DNA from: Candidatus Obscuribacter phosphatis
Lineage (GTDB): Bacteria > Cyanobacteriota > Vampirovibrionia > Obscuribacterales > Obscuribacteraceae
NCBI GenBank assembly: GCA_001899315.1
Contig: MOYA01000001.1
Span: 1,518,884 to 1,582,883, forward strand
Reading direction: 5' to 3'
Length of the DNA: 64,000 bases
Shown: positions 37,586 to 63,653 of the stretch, in pieces
Numbering within the stretch: the stretch's first letter is position 1
Layout of the letters: every line of letters begins with the position of its first letter
Notes under the pieces: generated by a model
What the model saw: the letters and a program-made list of their open reading frames with translations, nothing else
What the model was told of the DNA's origin: nothing
The model's database searches: none
Position numbers and translations under genes: made by a program

Positions 37586-37924
37586 TCAGGCAATCTCTCG
37601 CTGGACGATCCGGCTGTCATCCTGCCCAAGTATATAGCCTCTTCGAGCTTGATCGTCAGCATAAAGTGCAATCACCTCAGTGAGCCCAGTAAGCATTTCA
37701 ATAGGCACAAATTCTGATAGGCGCATTAAGTGCTGCTCTACCTTGAGCCATTCGTTTGTATTAAGAGGAATGGCTCGGTCCAATCTGCGAGAAATTTCGG
37801 CATTTTTATCGAAAGCAAGCGCCAGGCTACCCGATAAATCAAGTCTTTTCTCCAGCTTATCGCAAGCTTCCCCTGTGACCTTAGCCCTCCGAGCTTTCCG
37901 TCTCTCCTGGTTACCTCTAGCCAT
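37586..37924 (-). CDS. Small protein of an unknown family, copy A
   Basis: A 112-residue soluble protein. A basic N-terminus (MARGNQERRKARRAKV) precedes a helical core ending in a strongly conserved block: RAIPLNTNEWLKVEQ, SEFVPIEMLTGLTEVI, YADDQARRGYILGQ. The same block occurs in copy B at 61719-61976, with about 40 of 60 residues identical by eye. There is no signal peptide or membrane helix. GAGGTGA lies 4 bases before the ATG. It begins the minus-strand group with GNAT and hydrolase. I know no family with this motif; the basic tail, absent in copy B, might bind nucleic acid. Confidence 0.75.
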   Translation of the reverse strand: MARGNQERRKARRAKVTGEACDKLEKRLDLSGSLALAFDKNAEISRRLDRAIPLNTNEWLKVEQHLMRLSEFVPIEMLTGLTEVIALYADDQARRGYILGQDDSRIVQREIA

Positions 37925-38394
37925 TTTTCACCTCACCTTTTGTCTCGGTGTTTGTAAGACTTTTAGTTCTGAAATATTAGGGAAAAGGTAGTAAAGAACC
38001 TCACCCATTTTTCTGCTTTCTAAGTCAAGCTGATGGACGTCGAAGCAACCTAGCGGTTCCAGAATGTGCAGAAAGCCAACTTAATTTTTGTAAATGCGAA
38101 ATCCAATAAGCTGAGTTGATATGTCCTGGAGATGTCAGCCTGTCAATGAGAAGACCTACTCTTCAGTTAAGTAAAAGGTTGAGCTTTAGCCAAATACAAC
38201 TAACAGAGACCTCAAAGGGACGTCAGCAACAGCGCCTTCTTGTAAACCCAGATCATATGAGATAACACTAGTGCCAGCCGTGATCTCAGGTAGCTATAAT
38301 CTCTAGTGTCAGGAAGTAATCTCTTGAAAAGTCAAAAGGATTTTTTATTCAGATTATCTCGCTCAACTGACTGAGAGTACTAAGGACACGGAAT
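37925..38394. other. Non-coding region between copy A and the succinate dehydrogenase operon
   Basis: About 470 bases with no supportable gene. It should contain divergent promoters. The right part has TATAAT at 38295-38300 framed by an inverted repeat; see the separate entry. Nothing else was recognised. Confidence 0.6.
38265..38309 (+). promoter_or_regulatory. Candidate promoter/operator of the sdh operon
   Basis: A perfect TATAAT (38295-38300) lies between 7-bp arms ACACTAG (38265-38271) and CTAGTGT (38303-38309). No good -35 box is seen, which fits an activator-dependent or regulated promoter. The start of sdhC lies about 95 bases downstream. Confidence 0.45.
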
Positions 38395-39171
38395 ATGACC
38401 CAAACTAAATTGACGGAGAAGGTCCCTGCCTCTAATGGCGAACCCGCTTACTCCGGCGCCACGGCGCGAACAGATAATTGGTGGTTTGAGCCTTTACTCG
38501 TTGCTGTTGTATTCACAGCTTTTGGTATCTACGCTACCTACCGAGCTTTTGAAAACAACTACTATGAGTTCGGACCTTACCTGTCTCCATTCTATTCGCC
38601 AAACATGAAGGAGTTCTTCCCAGATCTGCCATTCTCAGCGGCGCTCCTCATACTTCCCTTTCCTCTCGCCTTCAGAGCCACCTGCTACTACTACAGGAAG
38701 GCTTATTACAGGTCTTACTTCGCACACCCACCGGGTTGTGCCGTTACATGGTTCAAAAGAAAGGGATATACAGGCGAATTCGAATTTCCTTTCGTTCTTC
38801 AGAACCTACACCGATATGCGTTCTATTTCGCAGTTCCGATCGTCGGTATCCTGTGGTACGACGCTCTAAAGACTATTTGGTATGACAATGGTCTGCATAT
38901 GAGCGTTCTCACTATAGTGATGGTCTTCAACTGTATCCTGCTCTCCGGTTACACATTCGGCTGCCATGCCTGTAGACACTTGGTCGGAGGAAATCTCAAC
39001 AATTTCTCTTGTCCGGAAAATAAACACAGCTATAAGAAGTGGCAGCGCGTTACCGCTCTCAACGAGAAGCACCAAGAATGGGCTTGGACTTCTCTCATAT
39101 CGGTAGCCTTGACTGATGTCTACATCCGCATGGCCTGCCAAAATACATCCCTCGCATTCCAGTTGTTTTAA
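38395..39171 (+). CDS. Succinate dehydrogenase membrane-anchor subunit (Sdh1-like)
   Basis: A 258-residue membrane protein with about five hydrophobic helices, first gene of the sdh operon and 2 bases before the flavoprotein start. It is longer than classical SdhC/SdhD. Its YYYRKAYYRSYFAHPPGCAV and GCHACRHLVGG segments resemble the single large anchor subunit of actinobacterial Sdh1-type complexes (Rv0249c-like). Several His residues could serve haem or quinone sites, but haem content cannot be judged. The quinone (ubi- or menaquinone) is not determined. Confidence 0.82.
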   Translation: MTQTKLTEKVPASNGEPAYSGATARTDNWWFEPLLVAVVFTAFGIYATYRAFENNYYEFGPYLSPFYSPNMKEFFPDLPFSAALLILPFPLAFRATCYYYRKAYYRSYFAHPPGCAVTWFKRKGYTGEFEFPFVLQNLHRYAFYFAVPIVGILWYDALKTIWYDNGLHMSVLTIVMVFNCILLSGYTFGCHACRHLVGGNLNNFSCPENKHSYKKWQRVTALNEKHQEWAWTSLISVALTDVYIRMACQNTSLAFQLF

Positions 39172-39173
39172 TC

Positions 39174-40997
39174 ATGAGCCAATACGAAATAAAAGAACAT
39201 GACGTCATAGTCATCGGAGCCGGCGGTGCCGGTCTTAGAGCAGCCATTGAGGCTTCCGCCCAGGGCGTGAGCGTGGGACTGATTTGCAAGTCCTTGCTCG
39301 GCAAAGCGCACACTGTCATGGCAGAGGGAGGCGTCGCCGCCGCTCTAGCCAACGTGGATGCGCAGGACGGCTGGCAGACTCACTTCAAGGACACCATGAA
39401 TGGTGGCAAGATGTTGAATAACTGGCGAATGGCCCAGTTACATGCCCAAGAGGCACCAGATCGAGTCAAAGAGCTGGAGCGTTGGGGCGCTGTCTTCGAT
39501 AGAACAAAAGACGGGAAAATTCTCCAAAGAGCTTTCGGTGGTCACACATGGAAAAGACTCTGTCACGTAGGAGACCGCACTGGTCTCGAGATGATCAGGA
39601 CCTTACAAGACCGTGGTGTGCACCAAGGCATAGACGTCTACATGGAATGCACAATCACCAAACTCTTCAAAGATGGCGACAGAGTAGCTGGAGCCTTCGG
39701 CTATTACAGAGAAGACGGTCGCTACATACTCTTCAAAGCCAAAGCGATTGTACTGGCTACCGGCGGAGTCGGTAAATCATTCACAGTCACCTCCAATAGC
39801 TGGGAGTACACTGGGGACGGACATGCCATGGCTTATGACCTTGGCGCCGACCTGATTGACATGGAATTTGTGCAGTTCCACCCCACCGGCATGGTATGGC
39901 CGCCAGGTGTGAGAGGCATTCTGGTAACGGAAGGCGTCAGGGGCGAAGGTGGTATTCTTCGCAACAACAAAGGCGAACGCTTCATGTTCAAGTATTTGCC
40001 TGAAGCCACCAAAAATGATTATGCAGCTACTGAAGAAGAAGCCGTTAAATGGGTTAACGCAGCGGTTGCCGGAGAAAAGACTGAGGCTAGAAGACCTCCG
40101 GAATTGTCCACTAGAGACAACGTAGCAAGAGCTATCTATACCGAAGTGAAAGAAGGAAGAGGTTCTCCCCATGGCGGTGTCTTCCTGGATATCAGCTATC
40201 AAGACTCAGAGCGTGTGAAGAAGAAGCTACCTTCGATGTATCACCAGTTCAAAGACTTGGCCGATGTAGACATCACAGCAGGCCCCATGGAGGTCGGACC
40301 GACAATGCACTACATCATGGGTGGTGTACGTGTGGAAGCCGACACCTGTATGACCAGAGTTCCCGGATTGTTTGCCGCCGGTGAAGTTAGCGGAGGCATG
40401 CATGGTGCCAATCGATTAGGTGGAAACTCTCTTTCCGACCTAGTAGTTTTCGGTAGAAGAGCCGGTCTAGGTGCCGCAGATTATGTAAAGGCTCTCACTG
40501 GTCATCCTGAGATTGACAAAGGGCAAATTGAAGAAGCCATCAATGAAATGGAGGCTCCATTTAAGCGTACCGACGGTGTCAACCCTTATGATGTCGCAAA
40601 AGAACTGAACAAAATAATGTCGACATATGTTGGCATTTTCAGAGAAGAGAGCGATCTTCAAACTGGCATCAGTAAGCTCGAAGAACTTAAGGAGATGGCG
40701 AAAAAAGCCAAAGCTACCGGTTCCAAAGCTTACAACCCCGGATGGCACCTCTGCCGTGACTTGCACAACATGCTTGTCTGCTCAGAAGCGATTGCCAGAA
40801 GCGCACTATCAAGGAAAGAAAGTCGAGGCGCCCACAGTCGACTCGATTATCCCAACACTGAAGCCGATTGGGGCAAGGTTAACACTGCAGTGGAATTGTC
40901 CTCCGGCGGTATGAAGTTGGAACATACCCCTCTACCGGAGATGCCAGCTGATTTGAAAGAGCTATTCGCCAAGAAGAAGGAGCCCAGTAATGCCTGA
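39174..40997 (+). CDS. sdhA: Succinate dehydrogenase flavoprotein subunit
   Basis: Catalytic subunit (607 residues) oxidising succinate to fumarate. FAD fold VIVIGAGGAGLRAAIEA; His46 in KAHTVMAEGG is in the usual position of the covalent FAD-His. VQFHPTGMVWPPGVRG and TEGVRGEGGIL form the substrate site, HYIMGGVRVEADTCM lies in the capping/active site, and HGANRLGGNSLSDLVVFGRRAG is the C-terminal FAD segment. It overlaps sdhB by 8 bases. Together with the anchor and FeS genes it forms a complete three-subunit complex. Confidence 0.96.
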   Translation: MSQYEIKEHDVIVIGAGGAGLRAAIEASAQGVSVGLICKSLLGKAHTVMAEGGVAAALANVDAQDGWQTHFKDTMNGGKMLNNWRMAQLHAQEAPDRVKELERWGAVFDRTKDGKILQRAFGGHTWKRLCHVGDRTGLEMIRTLQDRGVHQGIDVYMECTITKLFKDGDRVAGAFGYYREDGRYILFKAKAIVLATGGVGKSFTVTSNSWEYTGDGHAMAYDLGADLIDMEFVQFHPTGMVWPPGVRGILVTEGVRGEGGILRNNKGERFMFKYLPEATKNDYAATEEEAVKWVNAAVAGEKTEARRPPELSTRDNVARAIYTEVKEGRGSPHGGVFLDISYQDSERVKKKLPSMYHQFKDLADVDITAGPMEVGPTMHYIMGGVRVEADTCMTRVPGLFAAGEVSGGMHGANRLGGNSLSDLVVFGRRAGLGAADYVKALTGHPEIDKGQIEEAINEMEAPFKRTDGVNPYDVAKELNKIMSTYVGIFREESDLQTGISKLEELKEMAKKAKATGSKAYNPGWHLCRDLHNMLVCSEAIARSALSRKESRGAHSRLDYPNTEADWGKVNTAVELSSGGMKLEHTPLPEMPADLKELFAKKKEPSNA

Positions 40998-41760
40998 AAC
41001 CTCCACTAGAACAGCCACTCTCAAGGTCTACCGAGGCGACAGAGAAAAAGGCGAATTTAAGACCTATAAAGTGCCTGTTGAAGCGGGCATGGTTGTGCTG
41101 GATGCTATCCATTACATTCAACAAAATTTCGATCCTGAATTGGCCGTGCGTTGGAACTGCAAGGCAGCAAAATGCGGCTCCTGCAGCGGAGAAGTGAACG
41201 GTATGCCGTCTTTGATGTGCAAGACCCGTATGGATAGATTCCGTCCGGATGAAGAGATTATGGTTCAACCCATCAAGACCTTCCCGATCATCAAAGATCT
41301 GGTTACCGATGTCAGCTGGAACTATGAAGTGAATAAGCGAATCACAGCTTTCACTCCTGCTGAAGACGCAGACTGGACCTTCTATCAAGAAGACATCGAT
41401 CGCGTTCAAGAGTTTAGGAAGTGTATTGAATGCTTCCTTTGTCAGAACGTCTGTCATGTTCTAAGAGATCATGACCGTAAAGATGCCTTTATGGGACCGA
41501 GATTCTTGGTCAGAACCGCCAGCCTTGAGATGCACCCATTAGATACTGCCGACCGCTTGAAGTTCCTCAAAGACGAAGGCCATATCGGTTTCTGCAACAT
41601 CACAAAGTGCTGTACAGAAGTTTGTCCTGAAGACATTCACATTACAGACAACGCAATCATTCCGCTCAAAGAACGCGTAGTCGATGAGTTCTATGATCCT
41701 CTCGGTAAGTTCCTGCGCGGCGTGCTCGGTGCCGATAAGAAGAAAGCTAAGAAGAGCTAG
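40990..41760 (+). CDS. sdhB: Succinate dehydrogenase iron-sulfur subunit
   Basis: A 256-residue electron-transfer subunit. The [2Fe-2S] ligands lie in WNCKAAKCGSCSGEVNG and SLMCKT. The second domain has CIECFLCQNVCHV and CNITKCCTEVCPEDI for the [4Fe-4S] and [3Fe-4S] clusters. The first Cys group is spaced CxxxxCxxC as normal. It ends the operon; its 3' end overlaps the convergent AbiEi-like frame by 14 bases, and the operon terminator lies inside that gene. Confidence 0.96.
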   Translation: MPETSTRTATLKVYRGDREKGEFKTYKVPVEAGMVVLDAIHYIQQNFDPELAVRWNCKAAKCGSCSGEVNGMPSLMCKTRMDRFRPDEEIMVQPIKTFPIIKDLVTDVSWNYEVNKRITAFTPAEDADWTFYQEDIDRVQEFRKCIECFLCQNVCHVLRDHDRKDAFMGPRFLVRTASLEMHPLDTADRLKFLKDEGHIGFCNITKCCTEVCPEDIHITDNAIIPLKERVVDEFYDPLGKFLRGVLGADKKKAKKS

Positions 41761-61718: not shown

Positions 61719-61976
61719 TTAGGCTATTTTAGAGGCCTTTTTCTTGAGTTCAGCAACTAGATCTTCTTGTCCAAGAATATAGCCTCTGCGAGCTTGATCG
61801 TCAGCATAACTGATGATGGCTTCAGTAAGAGCGTTAAGCATACTCATCGGTACAAACTCACTAACTTGATTGAGAAGTCTCTCGGCGGCGAGCCATTCTT
61901 CGGTATTTAGAGGAATAGCATCATCAAGTCTGGCAATAACTGTGTAGTTGTGTAGTTTGTCCACTTTAGCGTTCAT
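61719..61976 (-). CDS. Small protein of an unknown family, copy B
   Basis: An 85-residue soluble protein. ATG 61976 is chosen over GTG 61985, with AGGTGA 5 bases before it. It shares with copy A (37586-37924) the block ARLDDAIPLNTEEWLAAE, SEFVPMSMLNALTEAI and YADDQARRGYILGQ, but lacks the basic N-terminal tail. It ends in a lysine-rich helix (ELKKKASKIA). It stands as a single-gene unit with its own terminator. No known family recognised. Confidence 0.75.
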   Translation of the reverse strand: MNAKVDKLHNYTVIARLDDAIPLNTEEWLAAERLLNQVSEFVPMSMLNALTEAIISYADDQARRGYILGQEDLVAELKKKASKIA

Positions 61977-62192
61977 TTTTTTCACCTGTAGAAGATAACT
62001 TGGAGCACCGGATTGGACCCGTGTTTTACCGACAAGAAATCCTGCAGGCTGCTGAAAGCCATTCAGGTCTTCTCATCTGGGAAATACACTAGGTCTTTTG
62101 CTTAGCAGCGTTTCTTGCGTGTATCTCGCTGTCTCTTTTATGCCCCTACAGGATCGACTTAATCACAAGATTCAGTTATCAAGCGAAGAATT

Positions 62193-63653
62193 TCATCTTA
62201 CCGGTCTCTTTGCATCATAATAGTTTCGAATAAAAGCCTGAGCCTGCGAGCGATTCGAAACTTCCTTAATTTCTTGGGCTTCTTCTAAAGCCTGCAAGAT
62301 TTCTCCGACAATTACCCCTGGACCAATACCAAGCTCCCTCATGACATCCTCACCTGTGAGTAGTTTCGGCATGCTTTGTATTTGCTCTTTATACGTTAGA
62401 TATCCGGTCAAAAGCCTATCAAAGGAATTCTCAAGTTTTTCTCTCTTTTCTCCAGAAAGACCCGGCCCCATAGTCGCGCCGAAATCTGCATAAGTAATGA
62501 GCATAAGTTCGGGGAAGTCATCGCCCACATTTCTGTAAAAGCGATTAAGGGCTTTCTGAGTTGGTTCGCCGGTATGAAAGAGTTGACCTGGTCTTAGATG
62601 CCAAAGCACCAACTTTTCGACCAAACGAGTAAGGTGCTTCGCCCAGCGCATTCGTTCAGCTAGAGGTCGAATCATCTCAGCCCCGACCTTGTCATGACCG
62701 ATAAAGCTGTGGCGTCCGTCTTCTTGAATTTGCCAAGTGGCCGGTTTTCCTATGTCATGAAGGAGAGCTGACACCTTGCTTGCCGCAAGACGAGAAATTC
62801 CTGGAATAAGCTCTCGCCTGCTGCTCATTTGTATGAATTCGGGCAAAGATGGAAACTTTGCCTCAAGCTGAGGAATAGTTTCGACACTATGATCAAAGAG
62901 CGCAAGATGATGATAGCTATTGCTTGTCACTCTGCGACACTCTTTCAATTCTTCAAAAATCGCCTCAAGCAAGCCTGAGCTGCCCATTTCATGAATGTAC
63001 TCTGAGCATTCATAATTGAGCAAAGAGAAAAGCTCGTAATTTATTCTCTCCGGAGCAACTCTTGCTAGTTTTTCAGAGTGTGTCTTTACTATGGAAATCG
63101 TAGCCGCGTCGATTTGTGCAGCCCGTGCACAGGCGAATCTATATACACGCAAAAGACGGAGCGGATCATCAATGAGAGACGCTTCGCTTATTGCCCTTAT
63201 CAGGTTAGCCTGCAAATCTTCAAATCCGCCCACGTTATCGACGACTTGATCAGATACTTCGCCGTCCATCATCAAGGCATTTATAGTCAGATCCCGCCGC
63301 AAAATATCTTGCTCAATTCCATCAGAATAGCCTGCAAAGTCCAGAACGATGCCTTCTTGCAGCACCACCCTGGCGATATCAAACTTGTCGTCGAGAAGGA
63401 CAAAATGACCGGCAAATTTCTCAGAAATTTCTCTGGCAAATTCAACAGCACCACCATCGATGGCAAAATCGAAATCCAAATTAGCTCGACGGGTTCTGTT
63501 CTCAGGCAGGTCGATGGCATCTCTTATAGATCCGCCAACCAGATAGGCTTTACGTCCTTTTTCTCTTGCCCTTTGAAAGACCGCTGCAACTTGTGGACGG
63601 GAAAGAGGACACATCCCGTCCAAAAAACGCACCTTTTTGTAAATCAGCGGCAT
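62193..63653 (-). CDS. CCA tRNA nucleotidyltransferase/poly(A) polymerase family, with HD domain
   Basis: A 486-residue class II nucleotidyltransferase. Motifs: AYLVGGSIRDAI, LDFDFAI with the two catalytic Asp, ILRRDLTINALMM and DPLRLLRVYRFACARAA. An HD domain follows (SALLHDIGKPATW, WHLRPGQLF). The arrangement is that of bacterial CCA-adding or A-adding enzymes (cyanobacterial type), which repair tRNA 3' ends. The only tRNA in the window encodes its own CCA, so repair or the A-adding role remains open. The start ATG 63653 has no strong ribosome site. Confidence 0.9.
   Translation of the reverse strand: MPLIYKKVRFLDGMCPLSRPQVAAVFQRAREKGRKAYLVGGSIRDAIDLPENRTRRANLDFDFAIDGGAVEFAREISEKFAGHFVLLDDKFDIARVVLQEGIVLDFAGYSDGIEQDILRRDLTINALMMDGEVSDQVVDNVGGFEDLQANLIRAISEASLIDDPLRLLRVYRFACARAAQIDAATISIVKTHSEKLARVAPERINYELFSLLNYECSEYIHEMGSSGLLEAIFEELKECRRVTSNSYHHLALFDHSVETIPQLEAKFPSLPEFIQMSSRRELIPGISRLAASKVSALLHDIGKPATWQIQEDGRHSFIGHDKVGAEMIRPLAERMRWAKHLTRLVEKLVLWHLRPGQLFHTGEPTQKALNRFYRNVGDDFPELMLITYADFGATMGPGLSGEKREKLENSFDRLLTGYLTYKEQIQSMPKLLTGEDVMRELGIGPGVIVGEILQALEEAQEIKEVSNRSQAQAFIRNYYDAKRPVR

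Follow-up and report, generated by a model that had tools for sequence, protein, structure and literature searches.

Two small related genes in one window

The stretch of Candidatus Obscuribacter phosphatis DNA analysed here (64,000 nucleotides, hereafter the window) raises the question of what two very small and related proteins, encoded ~24 kb apart, do for the bacterium that carries them. Their genes, named copy A and copy B, are laid out as follows.

37586..37924, minus strand: copy A gene, 112 aa, stop included (ORF, tblastn, orthologue in the same genus 88% identical)
37622..37663, minus strand: YADDQARRGYILGQ block of copy A (tblastn and family alignment)
37787..37924, minus strand: basic N-terminal tail of copy A, the 46 aa that precede the RLD core (residue count)
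37589..37594, minus strand: Ile-Ala end of copy A, a candidate degron (comparison of family ends)
61719..61976, minus strand: copy B gene, 85 aa, stop included (tblastn, ORF)
61767..61808, minus strand: YADDQARRGYILGQ block of copy B (tblastn)
61722..61727, minus strand: Ile-Ala end of copy B, a candidate degron (comparison of family ends)

The ORF list has copy B starting at 61985 (an upstream GTG), and the length of 85 aa is counted from the ATG. When copy A was searched against the window by tblastn, copy B was the top match (41/63 residues identical, E = 9e-24) and the runner-up had an E-value of 0.13; no third copy was found in the 5.49 Mb genome, which holds A and B only. Within the core, which runs from RLD to the D that follows LGQ, 40 of 57 residues are identical, and the YADDQARRGYILGQ block agrees at 14 of 14 positions, which bears out the original prediction of a second gene 24 kb away sharing about 40 of 60 core residues and a near-invariant block. 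The extra basic tail that it ascribed to copy A is present too, and is located at the N-terminus, where 46 residues with 12 K/R and 7 D/E stand ahead of the core.

Comparison with same-genus orthologues gave a Ks of 0.66 and a Ka of 0.067 for copy A (Ka/Ks ~0.1), and a Ks of 0.46 and a Ka of 0.005 for copy B (Ka/Ks ~0.01). Purifying selection is thus strong on both, and these values identify A and B as real coding genes. RBS-like sequences precede the starts of both.

Distribution of the family and searches for known relatives

A search with a single sequence found a match in 35 of 60 relatives. With a profile built from 49 members, the family was detected in 48 of the 53 genomes of the window's order, including 22/22 whose completeness reaches 90% and whose contamination does not exceed 5%; completeness was 65-89% in the five genomes without it. 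In a sample of 292 genomes from the phylum, only the window's own genome matched (0/291 others). A scan of 84,980 species genomes with two specific peptide patterns, which distant relatives could escape, returned 61 loci, most of them titled Obscuribacterales, Obscuribacter, Melainabacteria or Cyanobacteria. As far as sampled, the family is confined to Obscuribacterales: it is a signature of this single order among the non-photosynthetic Cyanobacteriota, found in all well-assembled genomes of the order that were checked and in none sampled outside.

Three of the pattern-scan loci (L115, L117 and L122) are titled Actinobacteria, Chloroflexi and Proteobacteria, and a whole-genome tool placed the corresponding genomes in the window's family.

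Sixteen positions are invariant in the 49 aligned members, and the conserved core follows the pattern RLDxxIPLxTxxW...L...EFxP...YADDQARRGYxLGQxD. From such conservation a strict binding role had been proposed at the outset; the conservation stands, and binding itself is plausible from the sequences.

Searches of Pfam, NCBIfam, PHROGs, PADLOC and PDB sequences gave chance-level matches only, none of them above a family cut-off, so that the description of a small family of no known kind was upheld and a match to a well-described domain family, named beforehand as its refuter, was not encountered in these libraries. The best Pfam match had an E-value of 0.0029, and the Pfam family concerned was matched by 5/49 members at E up to 1, which makes no coherent family. 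DUF6526 was rejected for copy A (E 0.029, below cut-off, over residues 10-54 and mostly in the basic tail), as was the peridinin-chlorophyll protein, matched by PDB profile at E 0.026, a similarity that we put down to helical repeats agreeing by chance. Two groups of function-unknown phage proteins, phrog_7427 and phrog_24061, show a weak C-terminal profile similarity to 22 and 20 of the 49 members, respectively, at E up to 1 (best E 0.0062 and 0.019); this similarity is, however, not significant, and at that permissive threshold phrog_7427 also matches 6/14 control genomes. An origin of the family in phages or plasmids was rejected, since no relatives were found in phages, plasmids or viral contigs. 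A literature search returned nothing on the motif letters, on small proteins of Obscuribacterales, on ssrA-like degrons in cyanobacteria or on small proteins divergent from sdh. This is an orphan family of a familiar sort, undescribed in the sources searched.

Both proteins are modelled as all-helical, A with a mean pLDDT of 76.6 and a pTM of 0.51, B with 77.2 and 0.56. A fold search gave best Z values of 4.3 (A) and 3.7 (B) and no match above noise; the top matches, lambda Gam for A and EsxB for B, have a large rmsd and a Z below 5 and do not enter the argument. That A and B are chance ORFs or an artefact, a thought invited by their very small size and lack of a database match, deserves next to no credence and is already refuted by their low Ka/Ks, the RBS-like sequences ahead of their starts and the presence of the family in 48/53 genomes of the order.

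A slow paralogue and a fast one

In a tree of 49 rows, one branch with a support of 98/100 parts 33 type-B from 16 type-A rows. Type B evolves slowly and occurs in both taxonomic families of the order, and type A evolves fast and occurs in the window's family only (29/53 order genomes). The N-terminal extension has a median length of 31.5 residues in type A vs. 15 in type B, and is net positive in 16/16 type-A rows examined. Copy B is accordingly the near-universal slow copy, and copy A a faster, basic-tailed duplicate. Because several A rows are long-branched, relations within type A are unsure, and the tree does not date the duplication. The B and sdh loci lie ~10-50 kb apart in many genomes, which fits a local duplication and would explain the 24-kb spacing of A and B.

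Copy A appears frame-broken in two assemblies (L132 near 5892 and G063:C97:22474-22724), as seen from two overlapping profile pieces or a shortened row; either a sequencing error or a pseudogene may be behind this. The G063 copy adjoins sdhC.

Copy A faces the succinate dehydrogenase operon

Next to copy A in the window lie the following features.

37925..38394, no strand: 470 bp of intergenic DNA from which copy A and the sdh operon diverge (ORF layout)
38395..39171, plus strand: sdhC-like membrane subunit gene (named from position; no Pfam match at 1e-3)
39174..40997, plus strand: sdhA, flavoprotein subunit (FAD_binding_2, Succ_DH_flav_C)
40990..41760, plus strand: sdhB, iron-sulfur subunit (Fer2_3, Fer4_8)

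The sdhB-sdhA-sdhC cluster is upstream of and divergent from copy A in all 16 flanked A loci. By whole-genome coordinates, type A stands head-to-head with sdhC in 28 of the 29 type-A genomes, or 28/28 of those assessable, the 29th match being a fragment at a contig end that was left out of that set. The two genes are within 760 bp of each other in 26/28 genomes and within 2.8 kb, with at least one gene in between, in the other two (G018 and G022); where sdhC is the nearest neighbour, the intergenic region measures 338-677 bp. Since succinate dehydrogenase (SDH) is present in 48/53 genomes of the order (as judged from sdhC) and type A in 29, copy A is not required for SDH. At the five A-less loci examined, no degenerate A was found beside sdhC at a meaningful score (5/5). 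A k-mer scan upstream of A returned weak words only, and an operator common to the A-carrying genera was not found.

Copy B follows a cca gene and carries its own upstream element

The immediate context of copy B shows no link to SDH, and two other features characterize it.

62193..63653, minus strand: CCA-adding enzyme / poly(A) polymerase family gene (cca), neighbour upstream of B (27/27 flanked B loci)
62138..62184, minus strand: bipartite element upstream of B, GCTTGATAACT ... ATTAAG ... GGGCATAA (28/33 B rows)

An orthologue of the cca gene is the immediate same-strand upstream gene in 27/27 flanked B loci, at a distance of 87-447 nt; given this gap and the conserved element of B's own, co-transcription of the two is doubtful. 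In the window, the element begins nine bases past the cca stop. It reads GCTTGRCAACT, then (G)TTAA, then GGG(C/A)ATAA in 28 of 33 B rows, with a CTTG-to-GGG spacing of 36-39 nt (mostly 38), and is missing from the remaining five at the strictness applied. The exact bipartite pattern has 26 matches in 25/53 genomes, 23 at B and 3 elsewhere, and its reversed control has none; a k-mer scan upstream of B likewise returned words well above shuffles. A common operator of A and B was rejected, as the words are strong at B and weak at A and the A-sdh regions do not contain the B element. We predict that the element is likely the own promoter and regulatory site of B.

Group-3 sigma factors (SigB/SigF type) have the consensus GTTTAA-N12-14-GGGTAT, and a promoter of this type was considered because GTTAAA-N12-GGG(C/A)ATAA resembles it, the B element looking like such a promoter plus an additional upstream box. 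This core matched in 0/3 genomes of the window's genus, where a match was impossible in any case because the site has ATTAAG. SigBFG-like sigma genes were found, but under the curated cut-off, and a sigma-70 scan of the two upstream regions gave one site each, not above shuffles.

A neighbour protein of ~200 aa near B (cluster 4; e.g., L034 gene 14 and L036 gene 3) ends in Asp-Cys in 20/20 distinct members, its C-terminal cysteine being invariant.

A constant C-terminal dipeptide

All 63 distinct full-length family members (one truncated A row having been dropped) end in Ile, Val or Ala followed by Ala, as compared with 6/466 ORFs of conserved neighbours. Type B ends in IA (38) or VA (1; n = 39), type A in VA (14), AA (6) or IA (4; n = 24), and a strict Ala-Ala end is found in only 6/63 members. 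Much of the B tail is conserved, so its conserved end is weak evidence. The A tails, by contrast, vary in length and at positions -3 to -10 (e.g., DSCKLVA, DDSRIVQREIA and a longer one ending SHIA) and keep the last two residues constant, a pattern more in keeping with a free end being recognized than with packing.

Both tmRNA and clpX are encoded in the order: tmRNA was found above the Rfam cut-off in 40/53 genomes and clpX above its curated cut-off in 47/53, both including the window's own. ARAGORN read a tag in 25/30 tmRNA loci (L166-L195); 13 of these tags end in VA, unlike the usual LAA, and 12 in AA. Substrates of ClpX that resemble ssrA are classed as C-motif-1, and the family's encoded end is similar to theirs in that Ala, its carboxylate free, follows a small or aliphatic residue, and in that the order's own tmRNA tags finish in VA or AA. 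A difference is that IA and VA endings prevail over AA among the members, whose degradation is presumed. In PMC7652416, Ala-Ala-COOH is described as the main determinant of ssrA degron recognition, and natural proteins are described as targeted by related degrons, which makes an encoded ssrA-like degron the simplest reading of the dipeptide.

Two points speak against it. Ile-Ala, the end of 38/39 B and 4/24 A members, occurs in 0/25 of the tags read, and the window genome's own tag ends LALAA; the terminal Ala could also be structural.

Possible roles: adaptor, DNA-binding regulator or stable partner

Our preferred reading, held tentatively and with rather less than even confidence, is that the family consists of short-lived helical adaptors or regulators with an encoded C-terminal degron, of which A has been recruited to SDH. 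None of the alternatives accounts as well for a free C-terminus that stays constant in the variable paralogue, which is why we favour it. A and B would each be a small all-helical adaptor or regulator, with a conserved face that binds one conserved partner. Their amount would be kept low and adjustable, the Ile/Val/Ala-Ala-COOH end being read as an ssrA-like degron by ClpXP, and A would act on succinate dehydrogenase, either by altering its expression from the divergent region that the two share or at the level of the complex itself. The invariant terminal dipeptide makes regulated proteolysis a testable prediction. A more elaborate version would see here an order-defining regulatory module of non-photosynthetic Cyanobacteriota, in which an unstable universal protein was duplicated, one copy was captured at the SDH promoter, and turnover by ClpXP, through an encoded end that mimics ssrA, links proteolysis and the load on ribosome rescue to the entry of respiratory electrons; this is speculative and we would give it very little weight.

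A serious, though on balance unlikely, competitor is a local DNA-binding regulator, whereby A would use its basic tail to bind the divergent region, controlling both sdhCAB and itself, and B would be autoregulated at its own element. The divergent layout is that of a regulator and its target, the A tails are consistently net positive, and the element upstream of B is conserved and nearly B-specific. However, no helix-turn-helix or other DNA-binding family matched above cut-off, B has no basic tail, and neither the B element nor any other operator common to the A-carrying genera was found in the A-sdh regions.

It is also rather unlikely that the terminal dipeptide instead belongs to the fold or to a docking contact, the family itself being a stable structural or RNA-processing partner, with B perhaps involved in tRNA maturation via cca. 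B always lies behind cca, and its conservation throughout means that a conserved end alone proves nothing. Yet an A tail that changes in length and sequence up to its last two residues fits this less well, and the gap between B and cca, with an element of its own, leaves joint transcription in doubt.

Least probable among the functional alternatives is that A is an SDH accessory or assembly factor in the role of SdhE, with B serving another flavoprotein or membrane complex, a reading that we regard as improbable. SdhE/Sdh5 (PF03937), the flavinylation factor of SDH that promotes covalent attachment of FAD to SdhA, is, like this family, a small helical protein, and one paralogue of the family is tied to sdh genes in every assessable genome. 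SdhE itself had no match at E 0.001 in any of the 53 order genomes (0/53), in a search for which the E. coli and Caulobacter controls were positive; the Synechococcus control was negative as well, however. SdhE carries an RGxxE motif that is not in the family core, where the RG belongs to RRGY(I/L/V)LG, i.e., RGxxL; none of the 49 members matched PF03937 at E up to 1, and type A is missing from many SDH-bearing genomes. Whichever way A acts, its linkage to sdh provides a first handle on the management of SDH in bacteria where SdhE was not found.

In two genera, both with copy A, the sdhC 5' leaders (e.g., L138, L147 and L152) contain short GTCC...GGAC inverted repeats downstream of the likely -10 box and ahead of the sdhC start.
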